Positions 4,180 to 50,255 of a stretch of 53,292 bases of DNA are shown piece after piece (position 1 is the stretch's first letter; each line of letters begins with the position of its first letter). The stretch covers positions 1 to 53,292 of the forward strand of contig JAQSWV010000029.1 in NCBI GenBank assembly GCA_029266455.1. Direction: 5' to 3'. The position numbers were made by a program, and so were the translations under genes. Source of the stretch: Nocardioidaceae bacterium. Its GTDB lineage: Bacteria > Actinomycetota > Actinomycetes > Propionibacteriales > Nocardioidaceae. The notes under the pieces were generated by a model. It saw nothing but the letters and a program-made list of their open reading frames with translations, was not told where the DNA came from and did no database searches.

Positions 4180-7035
4180 ATGTCCATCATGCTGTACCGG
4201 CTGGGCCTGACCATCGCCCGCCGTCGAGGGTTGTTCATCGGCGTCTGGATGGTCGTGCTCACCGGGATCGTGGGTGCCTCGGTGGCGCTGGGGGACAACT
4301 ACGACGATACCTTCACCGTTCCGGGCACGCAGTCGCAGCAGGGTCAGGACCTGCTGCTCGATCGGTTCAACCAGTCTGGGACGAGCGCCCAGATCTTGTT
4401 CACAGCAGCGAGCGGCAAGATCACCGACTCCGCGAACGCCTCAGCGGTGAAGCGGTTGGCGCACCGGGTCGATGAGGTCGAGCACGTGAGCATGAGCAAC
4501 CCGCTGGCTGCTGACGATCCGGTGATCTCGCCCGACGGCCGGTCGACCCTGGGACAGGCGCTGTTCGCGCAGCAGCTCCCCTCCGAGCGGACGCTTGACG
4601 GGGTGCAGGTGGCGGGGGCATCGGGTTCCGGGTCGCCTGTCACCACCGACGTTGGCGGTGACGCGTACAAGAGCACCGCCGACGAGAGCAAGCTCCCGGA
4701 GCTGCTGGGGCTGATGGTGGCGTTCCTGATCCTGTGCATCACGTTCGGTTCTCTCATCACGGCCGGCATGCCGATCCTCACTGCCCTCATCGGGGTGGGA
4801 GTGACACTGAGCGCGGTGGTGGTGACCTCCCAGTTCGTCACCGTTTCGAGCACGTCGCCGACGCTGGCGGAAATGCTGGGTCTTGCGGTGGGCGTCGACT
4901 ACGCGTTGTTCACCCTGTCGCGTTACCGGCGACAGCTGGGCGACGGGGTGCCTCCGGGCGAGGCGATGGGGCGCGCGCTGGCCACCGCCGGCAGCGCTGT
5001 CGTGTTCGCGGGCGCCACCGTGGTCATCGCCCTTACGGGGCTCACCGTGGCGGGCATCCCTGTGCTCACCGTGATGGGTCTCGCGGCGGCGGTGGCGGTG
5101 ACCGTTGCCGTGCTGGTCGCGCTCACCCTGCTCCCGGCCATTGCGCTGCTCTTCGGCTCGAGGCTTCGCCCGCGTGCGCGCCGGCGGGGGTTGCCGGGGC
5201 GACGACACCGGCCGGCAAACAGGACGCGCGGCGGTGTCTCGACCCGGTGGGTGACACTCGTCTCGCGCCATCCAGTTCTGACGATCGGGACGGTCGTGGC
5301 CGCCCTGCTCGTCGTCGCTGTCCCGGCGACCAGCCTTGAGCTCGCTCTGCCGGACAACAGCACGGCGCCCGAGGCGTCCCCGGAACGGCAGACCTACGAC
5401 GCCATCACCAAGGCATTGGGGGAGGGCTACAACGCTCCTCTGACGCTGACCGCGGGAGTCATCACAAGCAGCGACCCGGTGAGCACCGTCGACAAGCTGG
5501 CCAAGGCGGTTGGCAACGTGAACGGTGTCGTGGCCGTGACCCAGGCGACTCCCAACGAGGGCGGCGACACCGCCCTCATTCAGGCCATACCCAAGGCGGG
5601 ACAGACCGCTGAGTCAACCGCGACGTTGGTGGCCCAGCTGCGAGAGCGCAGCCCTGGTTGGGAGAACCAGTATGACGTGGACGAGATCCTCGTCACCGGG
5701 CCCACCGCCATCAACATCGACGTGTCCGACCGACTCACCGAGGCACTGCTGCCCTTCGCCTGCATCGTCATCGGCCTGTCGCTGCTGTTGCTGATGGTGG
5801 TGTTCCGATCAGTAGCGGTGCCGGTCAAGGCCACGCTCGGGTACCTGCTCTCTGTCGGGGCTGCGCTTGGCGCCGTGGTGGCGGTGTTTCAGTGGGGATG
5901 GCTCGACGCCTGGGCGCCGGGATTGTCGGAGGGGCCGATCGTGAGCTTCCTGCCCATCTTCCTGATGGGCGTTCTGTTCGGCTTGGCCATGGACTACGAG
6001 ATGTTTCTCGTCTCAGCGATGCGCGAGGACTTCGTCTCCACCCGCGACCCGCGCACGGCCGTGGTCAACGGGTTTCGCGCCTCCTCAGTGGTCGTCACGG
6101 CCGCCGCGCTGATCATGGTCAGCGTCTTCGTGGCCTTCATCCCCAACGGCTCGAGCACCATCAAACCGATCGCGTTCGGCCTCGCCGTCGGCGTCTTCGT
6201 TGACGCCTTCCTGGTCCGGATGACCCTGGTCCCAGCGATCCTGGTACTGCTTGGTCGTCACGCGTGGTGGCTGCCGTCATGGCTTGAGCGCCGGTTGCCG
6301 TCGGTCGACGTGGAGGGCGCGGCCATGCACCGCCGGGTCGAGTACCAGCGGTGGGACGAGGCGCATGGGCCTGCTGCCGTTCGCGCGACCGACCTTGTCG
6401 TGTCGGCCGCCGCCGACGCCCTGGCCATCACTGTCGCACCGGGACAGGTCGCCACAATTGACGTCCCGTCCGACGTGGACCCGGTCGAGCTCGGGCTGGT
6501 GTTGGTGGGACGACGACGCCCAATCGCTGGTGAGCTCGTCATAGATGGACTGCTGTTGCCGGAGCAGGCATCCGCTGTGCAGCAGACGACCGCCTTTATC
6601 GAGGTGGGTCGACCCGGCGACGAGGTGCAGTCCTTGGAGGAGCAGATCGAGTCAAGAGCCCAGGTCACCGTGCGGTCGCGGCGCCATCGGCACGCTCTCG
6701 TACAGACGGCCAAGGCGCTCGTTGAACGACTGGGCGAGACGGTCGTCGGCGCGAGCACACCGCCGACCGTTGCCCGGACGGCACAGGCCGCTGCCCTGGA
6801 GACGGCGCTCGCCGTGGCCGGAGGGGCCCGACTTGTGGTGGTGGCTCCGCTCGACGCCACAGACCCCGATCTGGCGGCCATAGGGGCACGACTGGCCGAG
6901 GCTCTCAGTGGGGAGGACGTCACCGTGGCGCTCATCGCCGGCACCCCGTCACCGTCGTTACACCTGCGCCAGCCGGTGCGGGACCGCGGAGAAACCGCAG
7001 CCGAGGAGACCTCAGTCGAGGAGACGCGATCGTGA
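4180..7035 (+). CDS. MMPL/RND exporter with C-terminal degenerate ABC-ATPase-like domain
   Basis: This 952-residue protein starts at ATG 4180 (MSIMLYRLG), with GGGAG about 11 bases upstream. Residues 1 to ~715 form a two-lobe MMPL transporter. Both lobes carry the family's intramembrane Asp signature: GVDYALFTLSRYR in lobe 1 and AMDYEMFLVSAMRE in lobe 2. MMPL proteins export lipids or drugs using the proton gradient. Residues ~730-925 are extra. A stretch reading GRRRPIAGELVIDG aligns by eye with the post-Walker-A part of ABC ATPases, and ARLVVVAPLDATDPDL sits where Walker B and the D-loop would be, but Walker A and the signature are gone. I call it a pseudo-ABC domain, by inference. The next gene starts inside this stop codon (GTGA), so the exporter and the YhgE/Pip protein probably work together. 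Confidence 0.9.
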   Translation: MSIMLYRLGLTIARRRGLFIGVWMVVLTGIVGASVALGDNYDDTFTVPGTQSQQGQDLLLDRFNQSGTSAQILFTAASGKITDSANASAVKRLAHRVDEVEHVSMSNPLAADDPVISPDGRSTLGQALFAQQLPSERTLDGVQVAGASGSGSPVTTDVGGDAYKSTADESKLPELLGLMVAFLILCITFGSLITAGMPILTALIGVGVTLSAVVVTSQFVTVSSTSPTLAEMLGLAVGVDYALFTLSRYRRQLGDGVPPGEAMGRALATAGSAVVFAGATVVIALTGLTVAGIPVLTVMGLAAAVAVTVAVLVALTLLPAIALLFGSRLRPRARRRGLPGRRHRPANRTRGGVSTRWVTLVSRHPVLTIGTVVAALLVVAVPATSLELALPDNSTAPEASPERQTYDAITKALGEGYNAPLTLTAGVITSSDPVSTVDKLAKAVGNVNGVVAVTQATPNEGGDTALIQAIPKAGQTAESTATLVAQLRERSPGWENQYDVDEILVTGPTAINIDVSDRLTEALLPFACIVIGLSLLLLMVVFRSVAVPVKATLGYLLSVGAALGAVVAVFQWGWLDAWAPGLSEGPIVSFLPIFLMGVLFGLAMDYEMFLVSAMREDFVSTRDPRTAVVNGFRASSVVVTAAALIMVSVFVAFIPNGSSTIKPIAFGLAVGVFVDAFLVRMTLVPAILVLLGRHAWWLPSWLERRLPSVDVEGAAMHRRVEYQRWDEAHGPAAVRATDLVVSAAADALAITVAPGQVATIDVPSDVDPVELGLVLVGRRRPIAGELVIDGLLLPEQASAVQQTTAFIEVGRPGDEVQSLEEQIESRAQVTVRSRRHRHALVQTAKALVERLGETVVGASTPPTVARTAQAAALETALAVAGGARLVVVAPLDATDPDLAAIGARLAEALSGEDVTVALIAGTPSPSLHLRQPVRDRGETAAEETSVEETRS

Positions 7036-9095
7036 TCGACAAGACACAAGCCTCGCGGCGGCAGCGGTGGGCCCGCGTCACCGTCATCGCTCTGGTGGTG
7101 CCGCTGCTGGCCGCGACGGTTCTGGTGTGGTCAACCACCGGACGGGACACGAATCTCGATCGCATCCCGGTGGCCGTGGTCAACGGCGACACCATCATCC
7201 AGAAGCCGCAACCCATGGCCGCAGGACGTTCGCTCACCGCCGCCCTCACCGAGCCGGACACGTCCAGCCCGAACCTCGACTGGAAGCTCACCGACCGCAA
7301 CGACGCCAACACCGGGCTGCGAGACGGTGACTACTACGCCGTCCTGACCATCCCCTCGGACTTCTCCAAGTCGGTCGTCTCCTCCGGCACCGACCACCCC
7401 ACCCAGGGACGACTGCAACTCACGAGCAACGGTGCGGCCAGCTCGACGGTGCCCTTCATCAGCCAGGCGATCGCGGACGCCGCCGCAACATCGCTCGGAC
7501 TTCAGACCACACAGGGCTACCTGGGCCAGGTGTACGACGGCTTCAATCAGATCGCACAATCCAATCAACAGGCAGCGTCGAGCTCGGCCGAACTCGCCTC
7601 GGGCACCGACCAGCTGGCCTCGGGAGCCAAGAGCCTCGACGAGAACACCAACGACCTGGCGTCGAGCCTCGGCCAGCTGTCGTCCGGAGCAGCCGACCTC
7701 ACCAGGGGCACCGGATCCCTGGCCACCGGTGCTCAGGACCTGGCACGCGGCTCGTCACAGCTCAGCGTCGGTGCGCGCGAGCTGCACCGCGGAGCGGGAG
7801 ACCTCGCGCGGAGTTCCCGCACGCTGGCGGGCAAGGCTGGGCTGCTCGCCGACACGTCAGGCCAGGTCGCCCGCGGCGTCGGCAAGGTCGCCCACGCGAC
7901 GGAGCGGGTCGCACGGGGGACCGAGCTCGTCACCGTCAACCTGTACGTGTTGGCACGTGTCTGTGAGCGGGCCGGCGCCGGTGAGCGGTTCTGCGCGGCG
8001 CTCACCCGCGCTCGCGACCGGGCACGTCGTCTCGCCGGTGGGGCAGTGGGCGTGTCGAAAGCATCGGCGAAGGCGGCGGGGGCCACCCACCAGCTCGCCG
8101 CAGGAGCACAGCAACTGGCTGGCGGGGCGCGCGCACTGGCCCGGGGAGCGGGGTCACTGGACCGGGCCAGCGGCAAGCTGGCAGACAGCTCCGCCCGGGT
8201 ACGCGATGGGGCGTCCACCGTCGCCCAGGGTGCGACGCAGGTGGACGACGGCGCTTCTTCGGTGGCCGAGGGTGCGTCGGCGGCGGCCACGGGCGGTGCA
8301 CAGCTCGCCTCCGGCAGCACCTCGCTCGACAGCAGCGCGGACTCAGTGAAGAAGGGTGCGAACCAGCTGAGCCGGGGGCTGGCCAAAGGAGCCTCCCAGA
8401 GTCCCACCTACTCGAAGTCCCAGAAGAAGGCCCTCACCCACGTGGTCAGCGAGCCCGTCGTACTGTCGAACACGGTGCAGCACACCCATCACGGCAACGG
8501 GTGGCTGCTAGCGCTCATTCTCGGTCTCGTGCTGTGGTTCGCCGCCTTGCTCAGCACTTCGGGCCGCGACCTCGCACACGTGCTGCGCCACGCGGCGGCT
8601 CCAGTGTCCTCGGGCCGCTTGACGTCGGTCCAGCTGCGCCCCGCCGTCGGTATCGCCTCGATACAGGCTGTCGCCGTGCTCGCTGCACTGCCACTGCTGA
8701 ACGTGAGCACTGCATCCGCCTCGCCGCTGGCACTGCTGACCCTCCTCGCTGCGGCAGTGTTCACGCTCGTTGCGCTGACGCTCCGGTGGGTTCTGGGCTG
8801 GTTCGGCGTCGCCGCATTCGTGATGCTCCTCATCGTGCAGGCAGCCGCGCTCGGCAATGTGATCCCGATCGAGACGGCACCCCGGATTCTCCAGACGCTC
8901 AACGGCCTCCTGCCACTCACCGCGTACGTCAACGCCGCCAGCCAACTGGTGACGGGAGGGCATGTCGGGTCACTCAGCAGCGTGGTTCTGGTGCTGCTGG
9001 CATGGGGTCTCGCCTCGAGCTTGGCCGCCGTGCTGGTCGTCCGCCGTGGCCGGTTGACGCCAGCCCGACCAGCCTCTGTGAGCCCCGTAGGGTGA
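7032..9095 (+). CDS. YhgE/Pip-family membrane protein
   Basis: This 687-residue protein starts at GTG 7032, overlapping the MMPL stop. It has one N-terminal membrane segment (~17-35), a large external part, and about five C-terminal membrane segments from ~490 to 675. That is the YhgE/Pip topology, shared with phage-infection protein Pip and type VII secretion EsaA-like proteins. Residues ~180-460 are filled with short repeats of the form LASGAxxLAxG/LARGAxxL, which predict a long helical stalk crossing the cell wall. NLDRIPVAVVNGD near the N-terminus is typical of the ABC-2/YhgE external domain. With the MMPL partner it probably forms an envelope export or surface assembly complex. The cargo is unknown. 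The gene is convergent with the next one, 29 bp away. Confidence 0.88.
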   Translation: MIDKTQASRRQRWARVTVIALVVPLLAATVLVWSTTGRDTNLDRIPVAVVNGDTIIQKPQPMAAGRSLTAALTEPDTSSPNLDWKLTDRNDANTGLRDGDYYAVLTIPSDFSKSVVSSGTDHPTQGRLQLTSNGAASSTVPFISQAIADAAATSLGLQTTQGYLGQVYDGFNQIAQSNQQAASSSAELASGTDQLASGAKSLDENTNDLASSLGQLSSGAADLTRGTGSLATGAQDLARGSSQLSVGARELHRGAGDLARSSRTLAGKAGLLADTSGQVARGVGKVAHATERVARGTELVTVNLYVLARVCERAGAGERFCAALTRARDRARRLAGGAVGVSKASAKAAGATHQLAAGAQQLAGGARALARGAGSLDRASGKLADSSARVRDGASTVAQGATQVDDGASSVAEGASAAATGGAQLASGSTSLDSSADSVKKGANQLSRGLAKGASQSPTYSKSQKKALTHVVSEPVVLSNTVQHTHHGNGWLLALILGLVLWFAALLSTSGRDLAHVLRHAAAPVSSGRLTSVQLRPAVGIASIQAVAVLAALPLLNVSTASASPLALLTLLAAAVFTLVALTLRWVLGWFGVAAFVMLLIVQAAALGNVIPIETAPRILQTLNGLLPLTAYVNAASQLVTGGHVGSLSSVVLVLLAWGLASSLAAVLVVRRGRLTPARPASVSPVG

Positions 9096-12252: not shown

Positions 12253-14409
12253 GTGGAGAGTCTCGCCCGCACCGTCATCCACCACCGCCGCATCGTCGGC
12301 GGGATCTGGCTCGTGCTCTTCCTGCTCGGTGGATGGTCTGCCAGCCAACTCAGCGATCGGCTCACCTTCGACTTCTCCTTGCCCGGCCAGCCCGGCGACA
12401 CAGCCGAGCAGCAGCTCATCGAGAGCTACGGGGTCACCACCTTTGACACCTACGTCGCCGTGCTCACCGTGCCTGAGGGACAAGGGGTGCCCGACCGGCG
12501 CAGTGATGTCGCCGGTGTCTACAGAGACGTTGAGCAAGCGGTCCCCGGGATCCGCCTCACGAGCTACCCGAGCACTGGCGATAGGGCGTTCCTCAGCGAC
12601 GACGAGCGCACCACCTTCGCGCTCATTCAGGGGCCGATGGCACAGTCCTTCGGTCCCGGGATCGCAGCCGAGATCGAGCCGGTCCTCGAAGCGGCCGCCG
12701 GGCAGGCGGGCCTCGAGAGTGGGCTGACCTCGTACGGGCTGCTGTCCGAGGGTGGTGACAGTGAAGGACCGAGTGTGCTGGCGGAGACGCTACTGGGGGG
12801 TGCGGGTGCCTTGGTGGTGCTGCTGTTCGTCTTCGCCTCCTTCCTCGCCTTCGTGCCGTTGCTCATCGCCGCCGTCTCCATCCTCACCACGTTCCTGATC
12901 GTGCTAGGGCTGACCACGTTCAGCGAGGTCAACTTCGTCGTCCAGTTCCTGATCTCGCTCATCGGCCTCGGCGTCGCCATCGACTACTCCCTGCTCCTGG
13001 TGTCGCGGTGGCGGGAGGAGCGCGCCGCCGGCCGCGACAACGAGGACGCAGTCGTCACTGCCATGAAGACGGCCGGCCATGCGGTTCTGGCCTCCGGTGG
13101 CACCGTCGCCATCAGCCTCGTGGCACTCATCGTGGTGCCGGTGCCGTTCCTACGCTCCATGGGCATCGGCGGCATGCTCATCCCGCTGATCAGTGTTGCT
13201 GTCGTCCTCACCCTGCTTCCGGCGCTGCTGTCGAGCATCGGGCCACGGGTCGACTGGCCGCGCATCCGCAGCGAAGGCACGGCCTCGCGGGGCTGGACGG
13301 CCTGGGCTGAGCGAATCGTGCGCCGACGCGGCCTCGCCGCCCTGGTCGCGGCCGTGGTGCTGGGACTGCTCATCGCCCCGGTCTTCAGCATCAAGATCGG
13401 CAACGCCGACGTCGCCTCGCTGGCCCGCAGCGGCCCCGCCTACGACACGCTGACGACGTTGACATCCGCAGGTGTGGGCGAGGGTGTGCTGACGCCGATC
13501 GAGGTGCTGGTGCCGACCGGACAGGCGGACCGGGCCGCTCGATCCGCGGGGGGCGTGGACGGCGTCCAGCTCGCCACAGTAGGCGAGGACAGTGCCGACG
13601 TCGCCGTCATCGACGTACTCCCCGAGGTCGCCACTGTCGACAGTGCCAGCAACGAAGTCGTCGCCGCCGTGCGCTCAGCGGTCGAGCAGTCGGTCGATGG
13701 CCAGGTGCTCGTCACCGGTGCCGGCGCAACGGTCGAGGACTACTTCACGGCCGTGTACGACAAGTTCCCCTACGTGCTGGCCCTGATCGCGCTGATCACT
13801 TTCCTGCTCCTGGTACGGACCTTCCGTTCGGTCCTGCTGCCGCTCAAAGCCGTGCTGCTGAACCTGATCTCGCTGGCCGCAGTGTTCGGCACGGTCGTGT
13901 TCTTCTGGCAACTGGGCAACGGCTCGGACGCCGTGTTCGACGTCTCGGCCACCGGCGCCATCACCTTCTGGGTGCCGGTAGTCATCTTCGCTTTCCTCTT
14001 CGGGCTCTCCATGGACTACGAGGTATTCATCCTGGCCCGCATGCGTGAGGAGTACGACGCCACCGGCGACACCGCCAAGGCGGTGGTGACCGGAATTGGG
14101 CGCACCGGTCGGCTGGTCACCTCCGCTGCGCTCATTCTCTTCTTTGCCTTCGCCGCTCTTGCCTCAGCCCCTGGGACGGAGATCAAGGTGCTGGGGACCG
14201 CCCTCGGCGTTGGCATCCTCATTGACGCGACCATCGTGCGCGCTCTCCTGGTGCCGGCGCTGGTCGTTCTCCTCGGCCGGTGGAACTGGTGGCTGCCTGA
14301 CTGGCTCGCCCGTCTGCTCCTCGTCGAGCCCTCACCGTTGGCTCCACCCGTCCGCGGGCCCCAAGGCGGCATGACCAAGCCTGTGCCCGAGCACAGCGCA
14401 CCGGTCTAG
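12253..14409 (+). CDS. MMPL-family RND exporter
   Basis: This 718-residue exporter has the two-lobe MMPL plan: a membrane segment near 15-35, an external loop, and a cluster of membrane segments, repeated once. The intramembrane signatures are GVAIDYSLLLVSRWREE in lobe 1 and LSMDYEVFILARMREEY in lobe 2. Length is normal for the family and there is no C-terminal extension, unlike the exporter at 4180. GTG 12253 is preceded by GAGGAG. The gene stands alone between the hairpin terminator and a convergent oxidoreductase. The substrate (lipid, drug or surface polymer) cannot be inferred. Confidence 0.93.
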   Translation: MESLARTVIHHRRIVGGIWLVLFLLGGWSASQLSDRLTFDFSLPGQPGDTAEQQLIESYGVTTFDTYVAVLTVPEGQGVPDRRSDVAGVYRDVEQAVPGIRLTSYPSTGDRAFLSDDERTTFALIQGPMAQSFGPGIAAEIEPVLEAAAGQAGLESGLTSYGLLSEGGDSEGPSVLAETLLGGAGALVVLLFVFASFLAFVPLLIAAVSILTTFLIVLGLTTFSEVNFVVQFLISLIGLGVAIDYSLLLVSRWREERAAGRDNEDAVVTAMKTAGHAVLASGGTVAISLVALIVVPVPFLRSMGIGGMLIPLISVAVVLTLLPALLSSIGPRVDWPRIRSEGTASRGWTAWAERIVRRRGLAALVAAVVLGLLIAPVFSIKIGNADVASLARSGPAYDTLTTLTSAGVGEGVLTPIEVLVPTGQADRAARSAGGVDGVQLATVGEDSADVAVIDVLPEVATVDSASNEVVAAVRSAVEQSVDGQVLVTGAGATVEDYFTAVYDKFPYVLALIALITFLLLVRTFRSVLLPLKAVLLNLISLAAVFGTVVFFWQLGNGSDAVFDVSATGAITFWVPVVIFAFLFGLSMDYEVFILARMREEYDATGDTAKAVVTGIGRTGRLVTSAALILFFAFAALASAPGTEIKVLGTALGVGILIDATIVRALLVPALVVLLGRWNWWLPDWLARLLLVEPSPLAPPVRGPQGGMTKPVPEHSAPV

Positions 14410-48044: not shown

Positions 48045-50255
48045 ATGCTGGTTCATCTGGCCGACTGGTGCTACCGACAGCGTCGTCTGGTTGTCGTCCT
48101 GTGGATGGCCGCTCTGGCGGCCGCCTTCGCGCTCTCGAGCTCGTTCGGCGGAGAGACCAAGCAGGACTACCTTCAGCCCGGATCGGAGTCTCAGGCCGCC
48201 GCAGACACCCTGCAGGCCGAGTTCCCGCAGCAGGCGGGCGACACGGTGCAAGTCGTTCTCCACTCCGAGGGCGGCGTCTCCTCGCCGGCGGTCCGCACCC
48301 GTGCGCAAGCCATCTTCTCCGACCTCGCCGCCGTCCCCGAGGTGGTAGGTGTCGTCAGCCCGTTCAGCGACAGTGGCGCCGGTCAGATCTCCCCGGACGG
48401 CAAGACCGCATACGCCCTCGTCGCGCTCGACAAGACCGCCGATGAGTACACCCCCGCTCAGGCGAAGGCGCTCGTCGAGCCGGTCCTCGCCGCCGGTGAC
48501 GACAACCTCCGGGTCGAAGCGGGGGGCCCCGTCGCGGCGCTGTCGCAGACAGCCCCCGTAGGCGGGGAAGGCATCGGTCTCATCGCCGCGGCCCTGATTC
48601 TGCTGTTCACGTTCGGCTCCGCGGTCGCGATGGGGCTCCCCCTCCTCACCGCAGTGTTCGGCCTCGGCATGTCCCTGGCACTGGCAGAGCTGCTGCGCCG
48701 GGTCGTCGACGTCCCGGACTGGGCGACCCCCACCGCAGCGATGGTCGGCATCGGCGTCGGCATCGACTACGCGCTCCTCATCGTCACCCGCTACCGCAGC
48801 AGCCTCGCCGAAGGGCTCGACGCACGTCACGCGACCCTGACGGCGATCGCCACAGCCGGCAGAGCCGTCGTGTTCGCCGGCCTCACCGTCGTTGTCGCGA
48901 TGCTGGGCATCCTCCTGGTCGGTCAGCCGGCCCTGGCTGGCTTCGCCTTCACCGCCTCGCTCTTCGTGCTGGTCACCATGACCGCGTCGTTGACGCTGCT
49001 ACCCGCGCTGCTCGGCTTCGCCGGGCGGAACATCGAACGTCTCCACGTGCCACTGGTGAGCAAGAACCAGCACGCCTACGACACCACTCGCTGGTACCGC
49101 TGGAGCCGGTTCGTCCAGTACCGACCTTGGGTCGCCTCGATCGGTGCGTTGGCCGTGCTTCTGACGTTGGCAGCTCCGCTACTCGGCATGCGTCTGGGCT
49201 TCCCGGACGCCCAGAACGACCCGGAGTCCTACACGACCCACCGGGCCTACGACCTGATCGCGGAGGGTTTCGGCCCCGGCTTCTCAGCGCCGCTGATTCT
49301 CACCGTGCAGGGGTCGACCGGCAGCGAGCTGCTGGCGGCCAGTGACTCGGTGGGCTCACAGCTCGCCGAGGTCAGCGGCGTTGCCCTCGTCTCCCCGGCC
49401 GTCAGCAACGATGCGGGCGACACCGCCGTACTGACGGTCGTGCCCGCCACCTCTCCCCAGGACGAGGCCACCGAGAACCTGGTCGACACGCTGCGCGACT
49501 CGACCATTCCGGCTGCGACCTCGGACACCGGACTCGACGTCACCGTCGGTGGGATGGTGGCCGCGAACCTCGACATCACCCGCGGCGTCGCCGAACGGCT
49601 GCCGCTCTTCTTCGGTGGTGTGCTGCTCGTCTCGTTCGTGCTGCTGATGATGGTGTTCCGATCCCTCGTCGTCCCCCTCAAGGCCGTGATCATGAACCTG
49701 TTGGCAAGTGCGGCCGCCTTCGGCGTTCTCACACTGGCGGTCAGTGGGGGACCGCTCGGCGACCTGGTCGGCATCCCGCAGGCCACGCCGGTCCCGATCC
49801 TGTTGCCCATCGGCATCTTCGCGATCCTGTTCGGGCTCTCGATGGACTACGAGGTGTTCCTCCTGTCCCGGATCAAGGAGGAGTACGACCGGACCGGCGA
49901 CAACGCGCGCGCCGTCGCCGATGGTCTCGCCAAGTCCGCCAGGGTCATCACTGCCGGTGCGGCAGTGATGATCACCGTGTTCGTCTCGTTCGTCCTCGGC
50001 CAGGACGTCTTCGGGAAGATGTTCGGCATCGGCCTGGCCGCAGCCGTCCTCATCGACGCCACCGTGGTCCGAATGCTGCTGCTACCGGCCACGATGCAAC
50101 TGCTCGGCGATCGCAACTGGTGGCTTCCCGGGTGGCTCGACCGGCTGCTGCCGAACCTCCACATCGAGGGGCACGAGGTCGGTGCCGACCAGACGGCACC
50201 CGAACCCCTCGTCCCACCCGCCCCGCTGCCGGCGGGTACCGGGCCCCGCCCCTAA
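48045..50255 (+). CDS. MMPL-family RND exporter
   Basis: This 736-residue exporter has the two-lobe MMPL plan with GVGIDYALLIVTRYRSS and LSMDYEVFLLSRIKEEYD. The external loop following the first segment (GGETKQDYLQPGSESQ) is family-typical. ATG 48045 follows GAGGAG. The C-terminal ~20 residues are Pro-rich (APEPLVPPAPLPAG-like) and probably cytoplasmic. It is divergent from the NarL regulator/kinase operon, which is the likely controller. The substrate is unknown. Confidence 0.94.
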   Translation: MLVHLADWCYRQRRLVVVLWMAALAAAFALSSSFGGETKQDYLQPGSESQAAADTLQAEFPQQAGDTVQVVLHSEGGVSSPAVRTRAQAIFSDLAAVPEVVGVVSPFSDSGAGQISPDGKTAYALVALDKTADEYTPAQAKALVEPVLAAGDDNLRVEAGGPVAALSQTAPVGGEGIGLIAAALILLFTFGSAVAMGLPLLTAVFGLGMSLALAELLRRVVDVPDWATPTAAMVGIGVGIDYALLIVTRYRSSLAEGLDARHATLTAIATAGRAVVFAGLTVVVAMLGILLVGQPALAGFAFTASLFVLVTMTASLTLLPALLGFAGRNIERLHVPLVSKNQHAYDTTRWYRWSRFVQYRPWVASIGALAVLLTLAAPLLGMRLGFPDAQNDPESYTTHRAYDLIAEGFGPGFSAPLILTVQGSTGSELLAASDSVGSQLAEVSGVALVSPAVSNDAGDTAVLTVVPATSPQDEATENLVDTLRDSTIPAATSDTGLDVTVGGMVAANLDITRGVAERLPLFFGGVLLVSFVLLMMVFRSLVVPLKAVIMNLLASAAAFGVLTLAVSGGPLGDLVGIPQATPVPILLPIGIFAILFGLSMDYEVFLLSRIKEEYDRTGDNARAVADGLAKSARVITAGAAVMITVFVSFVLGQDVFGKMFGIGLAAAVLIDATVVRMLLLPATMQLLGDRNWWLPGWLDRLLPNLHIEGHEVGADQTAPEPLVPPAPLPAGTGPRP

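Follow-up and report, generated by a model that had tools for sequence, protein, structure and literature searches.

A predicted pseudo-ABC domain fused to an MMPL transporter and its conserved association with YhgE/Pip proteins in actinobacteria

What role is left for an ABC-like domain without ATPase motifs at the end of an MMPL transporter, and why does the next gene encode a YhgE/Pip protein? The question is raised by two overlapping genes in a 53,292-nucleotide stretch of Nocardioidaceae DNA (assembly GCA_029266455.1, contig JAQSWV010000029.1, forward strand), the whole of which is called the window here. Most of what is known of YhgE/Pip proteins concerns their part as phage receptors, and to our knowledge they have no settled cellular role. 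A first-pass annotation had proposed that a dead ATPase may serve here as a docking domain between a proton-driven pump and a YhgE channel or stalk. No description of such a pairing was found in the open-access literature searched, and none of the papers found there that mention both YhgE and MMPL treats the pair as a system. Coordinates of all features are collected in Table 1.

Table 1. Features of the MMPL/YhgE locus, in window coordinates.
Feature	Position	Strand	Basis
MMPL (RND) transporter with C-terminal pseudo-ABC domain, 951 aa	4180..7035	+	PF03176, MmpL3 match
MMPL core, aa 1-705, comparable to MmpL3	4180..6294	+	Pfam, PDB search
First proton-relay motif GVDYALF, aligned to MmpL3 AIDYGLF	4891..4911	+	alignment
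Second proton-relay motif AMDYEMF, aligned to MmpL3 STDYEVF	5986..6006	+	alignment
Tail, aa 706-951 (~245 residues), pseudo-ABC domain	6295..7032	+	profile, AlphaFold model, structure match
ABC NBD fold within tail	about 6367-6981	+	predicted structure
Walker A-equivalent position, VPSDVDPVE; no Gly-rich loop, no Lys	6463..6489	+	motif alignment
GELVIDG strand, aa 784-790; equivalent of ABC strand after Walker A helix	6529..6549	+	motif alignment
ABC signature-equivalent position, TVARTAQ	6766..6786	+	motif alignment
Walker-B-like strand LVVVAPLDATDPDL, aa 885-898, without Asp-Glu pair	6832..6873	+	motif alignment
GTGA overlap: YhgE GTG start inside MMPL stop codon, 4 nt	7032..7035	+	sequence
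YhgE/Pip protein, 687 aa; sole YhgE of genome	7032..9095	+	NCBIfam, AlphaFold model
Predicted antiparallel coiled-coil hairpin, residues 177-456, xxxLxxG repeats	7560..8399	+	repeat matches, model
Cys311 and Cys321 flanking hairpin tip, turn at residues 315-317	7962..7994	+	model, sequence
ABC-2 / type V transmembrane domain fold, residues 485-677	8484..9062	+	ABCG2 structure match
Cytosolic TM2-TM3 loop, residues 510-526, coupling-helix position of ABC-2 proteins	8559..8609	+	model topology; analogy

The MMPL protein and its degenerate tail

The first protein scores well above the cut-off of the Pfam model PF03176 (257.6 bits, cut-off 20.5), and the best PDB relative of its core is MmpL3 (1.4e-40). 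Asp-Tyr proton-relay motifs are present in both halves, and on these retained motifs the MMPL part reads as a proton-driven RND pump. No coiled-coil hairpin insertion of the MmpL5 type is seen in the chain when the core is aligned to MmpL3. The source genome holds eight MMPL genes and one YhgE gene, which only the tailed MMPL adjoins. Two more MMPL genes lie in the window (12253-14409 and 48045-50255), both without a tail and without YhgE neighbours. A plasmid search with the query P0001 returned no place covering 80% of the query and, among the matches listed, the MMPL core only.

The window tail alone matched no Pfam or NCBIfam model and its PDB sequence search gave nothing useful; its ABC homology becomes visible only through a family profile. 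With a limit of E up to 1, a profile of 69 tails matched 502 PDB chains (best 2.9e-17), and the 60 matches listed are all ABC proteins; PF00005 is matched directly by 12 of the 69 relatives (E up to 0.01), the window tail having no match. Structure prediction, which the first-pass annotation had suggested as a check, agrees with the profile: the AlphaFold model of the tail (pLDDT 88.9, pTM 0.82) retrieves ABC ATPase domains throughout the top 50 Foldseek matches (best 3.8e-9), and VIA-align superposes 186 of its residues on the ABC ATPase 1vpl with an rmsd of 3.1 and a Z of 15.9, well above the background of 7-8 quoted by the tool. The predicted structure of the tail thus shows an ABC nucleotide-binding-domain (NBD) fold, preceded by a family-invariant D-x-E-G linker. 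When 58 relatives were scanned with the tail, the matches were either tails fused to MMPL or ABC proteins encoded as free-standing genes. When the alignment of junction plus tail was searched against genome contigs, 546 relatives were confirmed and 80 loci returned, all organisms named among the matches being actinobacteria.

To compare catalytic motifs, 92 fused tails were aligned with 20 free-standing partners and five ordinary ABC controls. The ABC-like segments attributed to the extension are indeed there, GELVIDG and the Walker-B-like strand both being located in the tail, and the reported lack of Walker A and signature holds as well: where true ABC proteins read GPNGAGKTT, RRLSGGQQKRL and VVLDEPTAGLD, the window tail reads VPSDVDPVE, TVARTAQAAAL and VVVAPLDATD. 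Walker A, the LSGGQ signature, the catalytic Glu and the H-loop His are all absent from it in this alignment. Judged by its motifs, the window tail is a pseudo-ATPase, a catalytically dead NBD.

The family is less uniform. The Walker A Lys is kept by 10 of the 92 fused tails, in which the P-loop is intact (for example GPSGSGKT and GQAGSGKT), and is Arg in 36; among the 20 free-standing partners it is kept by two and replaced by Arg in 17, so that these members mostly show a K to R change with the loop glycines kept. Roughly 77% of fused tails retain the Walker B Asp. Some members with the Walker A Lys may, on this evidence, still bind nucleotide. LSGGQ occurs in no aligned relative, fused or free-standing, and most fused tails have a gap in place of the signature-bearing helical subdomain. 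On a quick tree of the MMPL proteins the state of the Lys requires five changes, or about 10 losses if regain is disallowed. In two genomes (G053 and G040) a free-standing partner with an intact P-loop, GPAGAGKS, lies beside YhgE (L169, L170), and a fused MMPL/YhgE pair is found in the same genomes.

Several non-catalytic positions of the tails are conserved nonetheless, namely the D-x-E-G linker, a Trp, a Gly-Arg after the Walker A helix, a Gly and a Pro. Divergence is quicker in the tail than in the core: dN/dS of the tail is 0.15-0.37 for the majority of close pairs and reaches 0.51 and 0.61 in two others, the core giving 0.06-0.40. These values indicate that the pseudo-ABC domain is maintained under purifying selection.

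YhgE/Pip proteins and their pseudo-ABC partners

The second gene had been described as a YhgE/Pip gene starting within the stop of the first, and both parts of the description stand: the two frames share GTGA, and the product scores 107.9 bits against the N-terminal-domain model TIGR03061 (cut-off 96.15). The C-terminal-domain model TIGR03062 gives 66.5 bits (2.5e-18), below its curated cut-off of 102.2; it is accordingly the N-terminal domain that identifies the partner as a YhgE/Pip protein, its C-terminal domain being divergent. Eight matches to the NCBIfam xxxLxxG heptad repeat are found. The AlphaFold model (pLDDT 78, overall pTM 0.52; orientation of the hairpin uncertain) orders the protein as an N-terminal membrane helix, an alpha/beta domain, a hairpin of two helices of about 138 residues (~20 nm) and a membrane domain. 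Residues 485-677 match ABCG2 with a Z of 17.9 and an rmsd of 2.6 over 190 residues, NosY and ABCA also matching; the modelled membrane half thus has an ABC-2 (type V) fold.

The survey of tailed MMPLs for linked YhgE genes that had been proposed gave a near-universal association. YhgE adjoins the tailed MMPL in 11 of 11 cases reached from relatives and in 79 of the 80 genome-contig loci, the remaining one stopping at the contig end, and the spacing seen most often in relatives is again the 4-nt overlap. With more than 90 other actinobacterial loci sharing it, the arrangement of tail and YhgE is not attributable to chance. A TetR-like gene lies upstream in 57 of the 80 loci (by one lenient query), and clustering of neighbours gives a TetR-type regulator as the only frequent additional gene.

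The converse search started from YhgE. Across 148 genomes of the class, 38 YhgE genes score above the family cut-off; an ABC-like gene lies directly upstream in 36 of the 37 that were fetched, or 37 of 38 with the window included. The 36 include one pseudo-ABC protein lying inside a long open frame (L191), and L211 is the sole remaining YhgE of the 37 fetched without an ABC-like gene directly upstream. Thirty of these 37 partners are free-standing and seven are fused to MMPL. In all 35 upstream partners that were aligned, the signature, the Q-loop Gln and the H-loop His are absent, the five ordinary ABC controls scoring normally. Actinobacterial YhgE/Pip proteins as a rule thus have a pseudo-ABC partner, mostly free-standing and MMPL-fused in one clade. 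Most of them now gain a dedicated partner, the pseudo-ABC domain, together with a membrane fold, ABC-2, and in that one clade the partner is covalently linked to an energised pump. Fused-type YhgEs all fall on the same side of a supported branch (97*), which is consistent with a single origin of the fusion. No MMPL gene was found in the 12-14 kb checked around free-standing pairs, from which it follows that YhgE does not need MMPL everywhere.

The broader statement that YhgE-type proteins elsewhere pair with ABC ATPases needs correction after this survey. The actinobacterial partners examined are degenerate, and no intact ATPase gene is conserved beside the pair; in the window, the tail is the only NBD-like partner of YhgE, with no catalytically competent NBD adjoining. 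Upstream of YhgE in five Bacillota loci and one Deinococcus locus there is no ABC gene at all; the Bacillota proteins (phage infection protein) share the N-terminal domain and the repeat stalk with the protein studied here but differ in this lack of an adjoining ABC-like gene.

Cys residues flank the hairpin tip as a pair in 73 of 88 fused-type YhgEs, in two of 14 beside free-standing partners and in none of five from Bacillota. Because the tip Cys pairs trace back to the same phylogenetic origin as the fusion, the association of the two may be a single event.

Two groups of candidates were set aside. Ordinary ABC genes of relatives matched by the tail (L019, L021-L023, L025, L027-L029) have no adjoining YhgE. 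Short YhgE-like proteins that score below the cut-off of TIGR03061 (L212-L225) lack a directly upstream ABC partner and probably belong to another family.

Some individual loci depart from the simple layout. Fused and free-standing pseudo-ABC/YhgE systems also occur together in genomes G148, G159, G170 and G191, and another genome carries two tandem pairs (L159, G174:C9). A second tailed MMPL (L172, G170:C1:1352000-1364000) is followed by a YhgE in a 1725-residue open frame that overlaps the MMPL frame; the YhgE family model matches it in two pieces, and it is possibly a divergent or damaged copy. On the Tsukamurella plasmid NZ_LR134454.1 (L226) the pseudo-ABC partner of YhgE is annotated merely as a hypothetical protein, and an acyltransferase gene follows the pair, which may point to a function connected with lipids or the cell wall.

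Roles considered for the pseudo-ABC domain

Proteins with an ABC-2 membrane fold offer a binding site to an NBD, and the sole NBD-like element of the system is dead and fused to a pump; a docking piece is therefore the simplest reading of the tail, and the recurrence of the pairing across actinobacterial loci suggests that a dead engine has been kept as a connector. We consider it probable, with some reservation, that the two genes encode one export machine in which the pseudo-NBD docks a proton-driven pump onto an ABC-2-like stalk protein. The pseudo-NBD would bind YhgE on its cytosolic face, in the place of an NBD, and would tether the MMPL pump to it, possibly coupling their conformations. 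The YhgE hairpin would form an external stalk or conduit, an element that this short MMPL lacks and MmpL4/5 carry in their own chain, and the cargo would probably be a lipid or another amphiphile. Such a machine is predicted to have proton-driven, ATP-independent energetics and would be an unusual instance of RND and ABC exporters crossing over. Weighing against it are the Walker A Lys kept by some members, the free-standing pairs with no MMPL nearby and the faster divergence of the tail. A further-reaching version is put forward only tentatively, as we hold it at somewhat below even odds: the RND pump would do for an ABC-2-type protein what ATP hydrolysis does elsewhere, with the dead NBD as mechanical link and the ABC-2 partner as a trans-envelope coiled-coil conduit, and more broadly actinobacterial YhgE/Pip would work with a dedicated pseudo-ABC subunit.

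The variable state of the P-loop bears on a different possibility, in which the ABC-like domain is a nucleotide sensor or weak ATPase and the binding of ATP, not its hydrolysis, gates YhgE, the window lineage having lost even that. Intact P-loops in 10 of 92 fused tails with five changes on the tree, the glycines kept alongside the K to R change in free-standing members and the frequent Walker B Asp speak for such a sensor; the window tail, however, lacks the P-loop entirely, signature, Q-loop Gln and H-loop His are missing from 35 of 35 upstream partners while the five controls score as expected, and the no-regain model implies at least 10 losses of the Lys. We regard a sensor as unlikely. 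The same repeated loss of catalytic motifs, together with the faster divergence of the tail relative to the core, could instead mark a vestige of an ABC/YhgE operon, fused to MMPL by chance and without present role, only the adjacency being maintained. Retention of the tail across the relatives found, the purifying selection on it, its non-catalytic residues that are invariant throughout the family (D-x-E-G linker, W, GR, G, P) and the retention of free-standing versions, degenerate though they are, make this quite improbable.

Asymmetric ABC exporters with one degenerate NBD exist, and the ABC-2 fold of YhgE would suit an arrangement of that kind, in which the pseudo-NBD dimerizes with an ordinary ABC ATPase encoded elsewhere to drive YhgE as an ATP-dependent exporter. 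Asymmetric NBDs normally retain Walker A in both halves, though, which is not the case here; moreover, an intact ATPase gene is not conserved beside the pair and an ABC gene is missing from the six loci of YhgE in other phyla, so that we give this arrangement very little credence.

One published expression dataset fits a joint role of the two genes. Cholesterol induces a candidate pair of Saccharopolyspora hirsuta, an MMPL gene (F1721_04140) and a YhgE/Pip gene (F1721_04135) whose locus tags are consecutive, each more than 3-fold (PMC9782250). The fused arrangement is present at four other loci of Saccharopolyspora (L064, L082, L085 and L106).

Comparison with known transport systems

MmpL3, the trehalose monomycolate exporter, is the closest solved relative of the MMPL core and keeps the same Asp-Tyr relay, but it lacks an ABC-like tail, and we know of no YhgE partner for it. 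The type V or ABC-2 exporters (ABCG2, ABCA, NosFY and TarGH) share with the present system the fold of the YhgE membrane half and a partner of NBD fold; here, in contrast, the NBD is dead and sometimes part of a proton-driven pump, and YhgE carries a long external hairpin.

A direct parallel can be drawn with MmpL5, a coiled-coil exporter of drugs and siderophores. The MmpS5-MmpL5 and MmpS4-MmpL4 systems likewise combine an MMPL core driven by the proton-motive force, a long coiled-coil hairpin outside the cell, bearing a pair of Cys at its tip, and a cytosolic partner at the membrane face, there AcpM. They differ in that the hairpin lies inside the MMPL protein and not in YhgE, and in that the cytosolic element here is a pseudo-ABC domain fused to MMPL. 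In MmpL5 the antiparallel coiled coil comprises 196 residues of its own chain and has a tip disulfide needed for efflux (PMC12501195); it has been modelled as a tube, and function is lost without it (PMC12501195; see also PMC12346298). A link to corynebacterial CmpL4 was dropped because the gene downstream of CmpL4 is tgt (PMC4287177).

EsaA/YueB of type VIIb secretion has a YhgE-like N-terminal domain, and the model TIGR03929 matches the YhgE/Pip protein of the window under its cut-off. That system serves protein secretion, has no MMPL and employs another pseudo-enzyme, the pseudokinase EssB/YukC (PMC9600267); it is nonetheless a second case of a YhgE-like protein working with a pseudo-enzyme partner.
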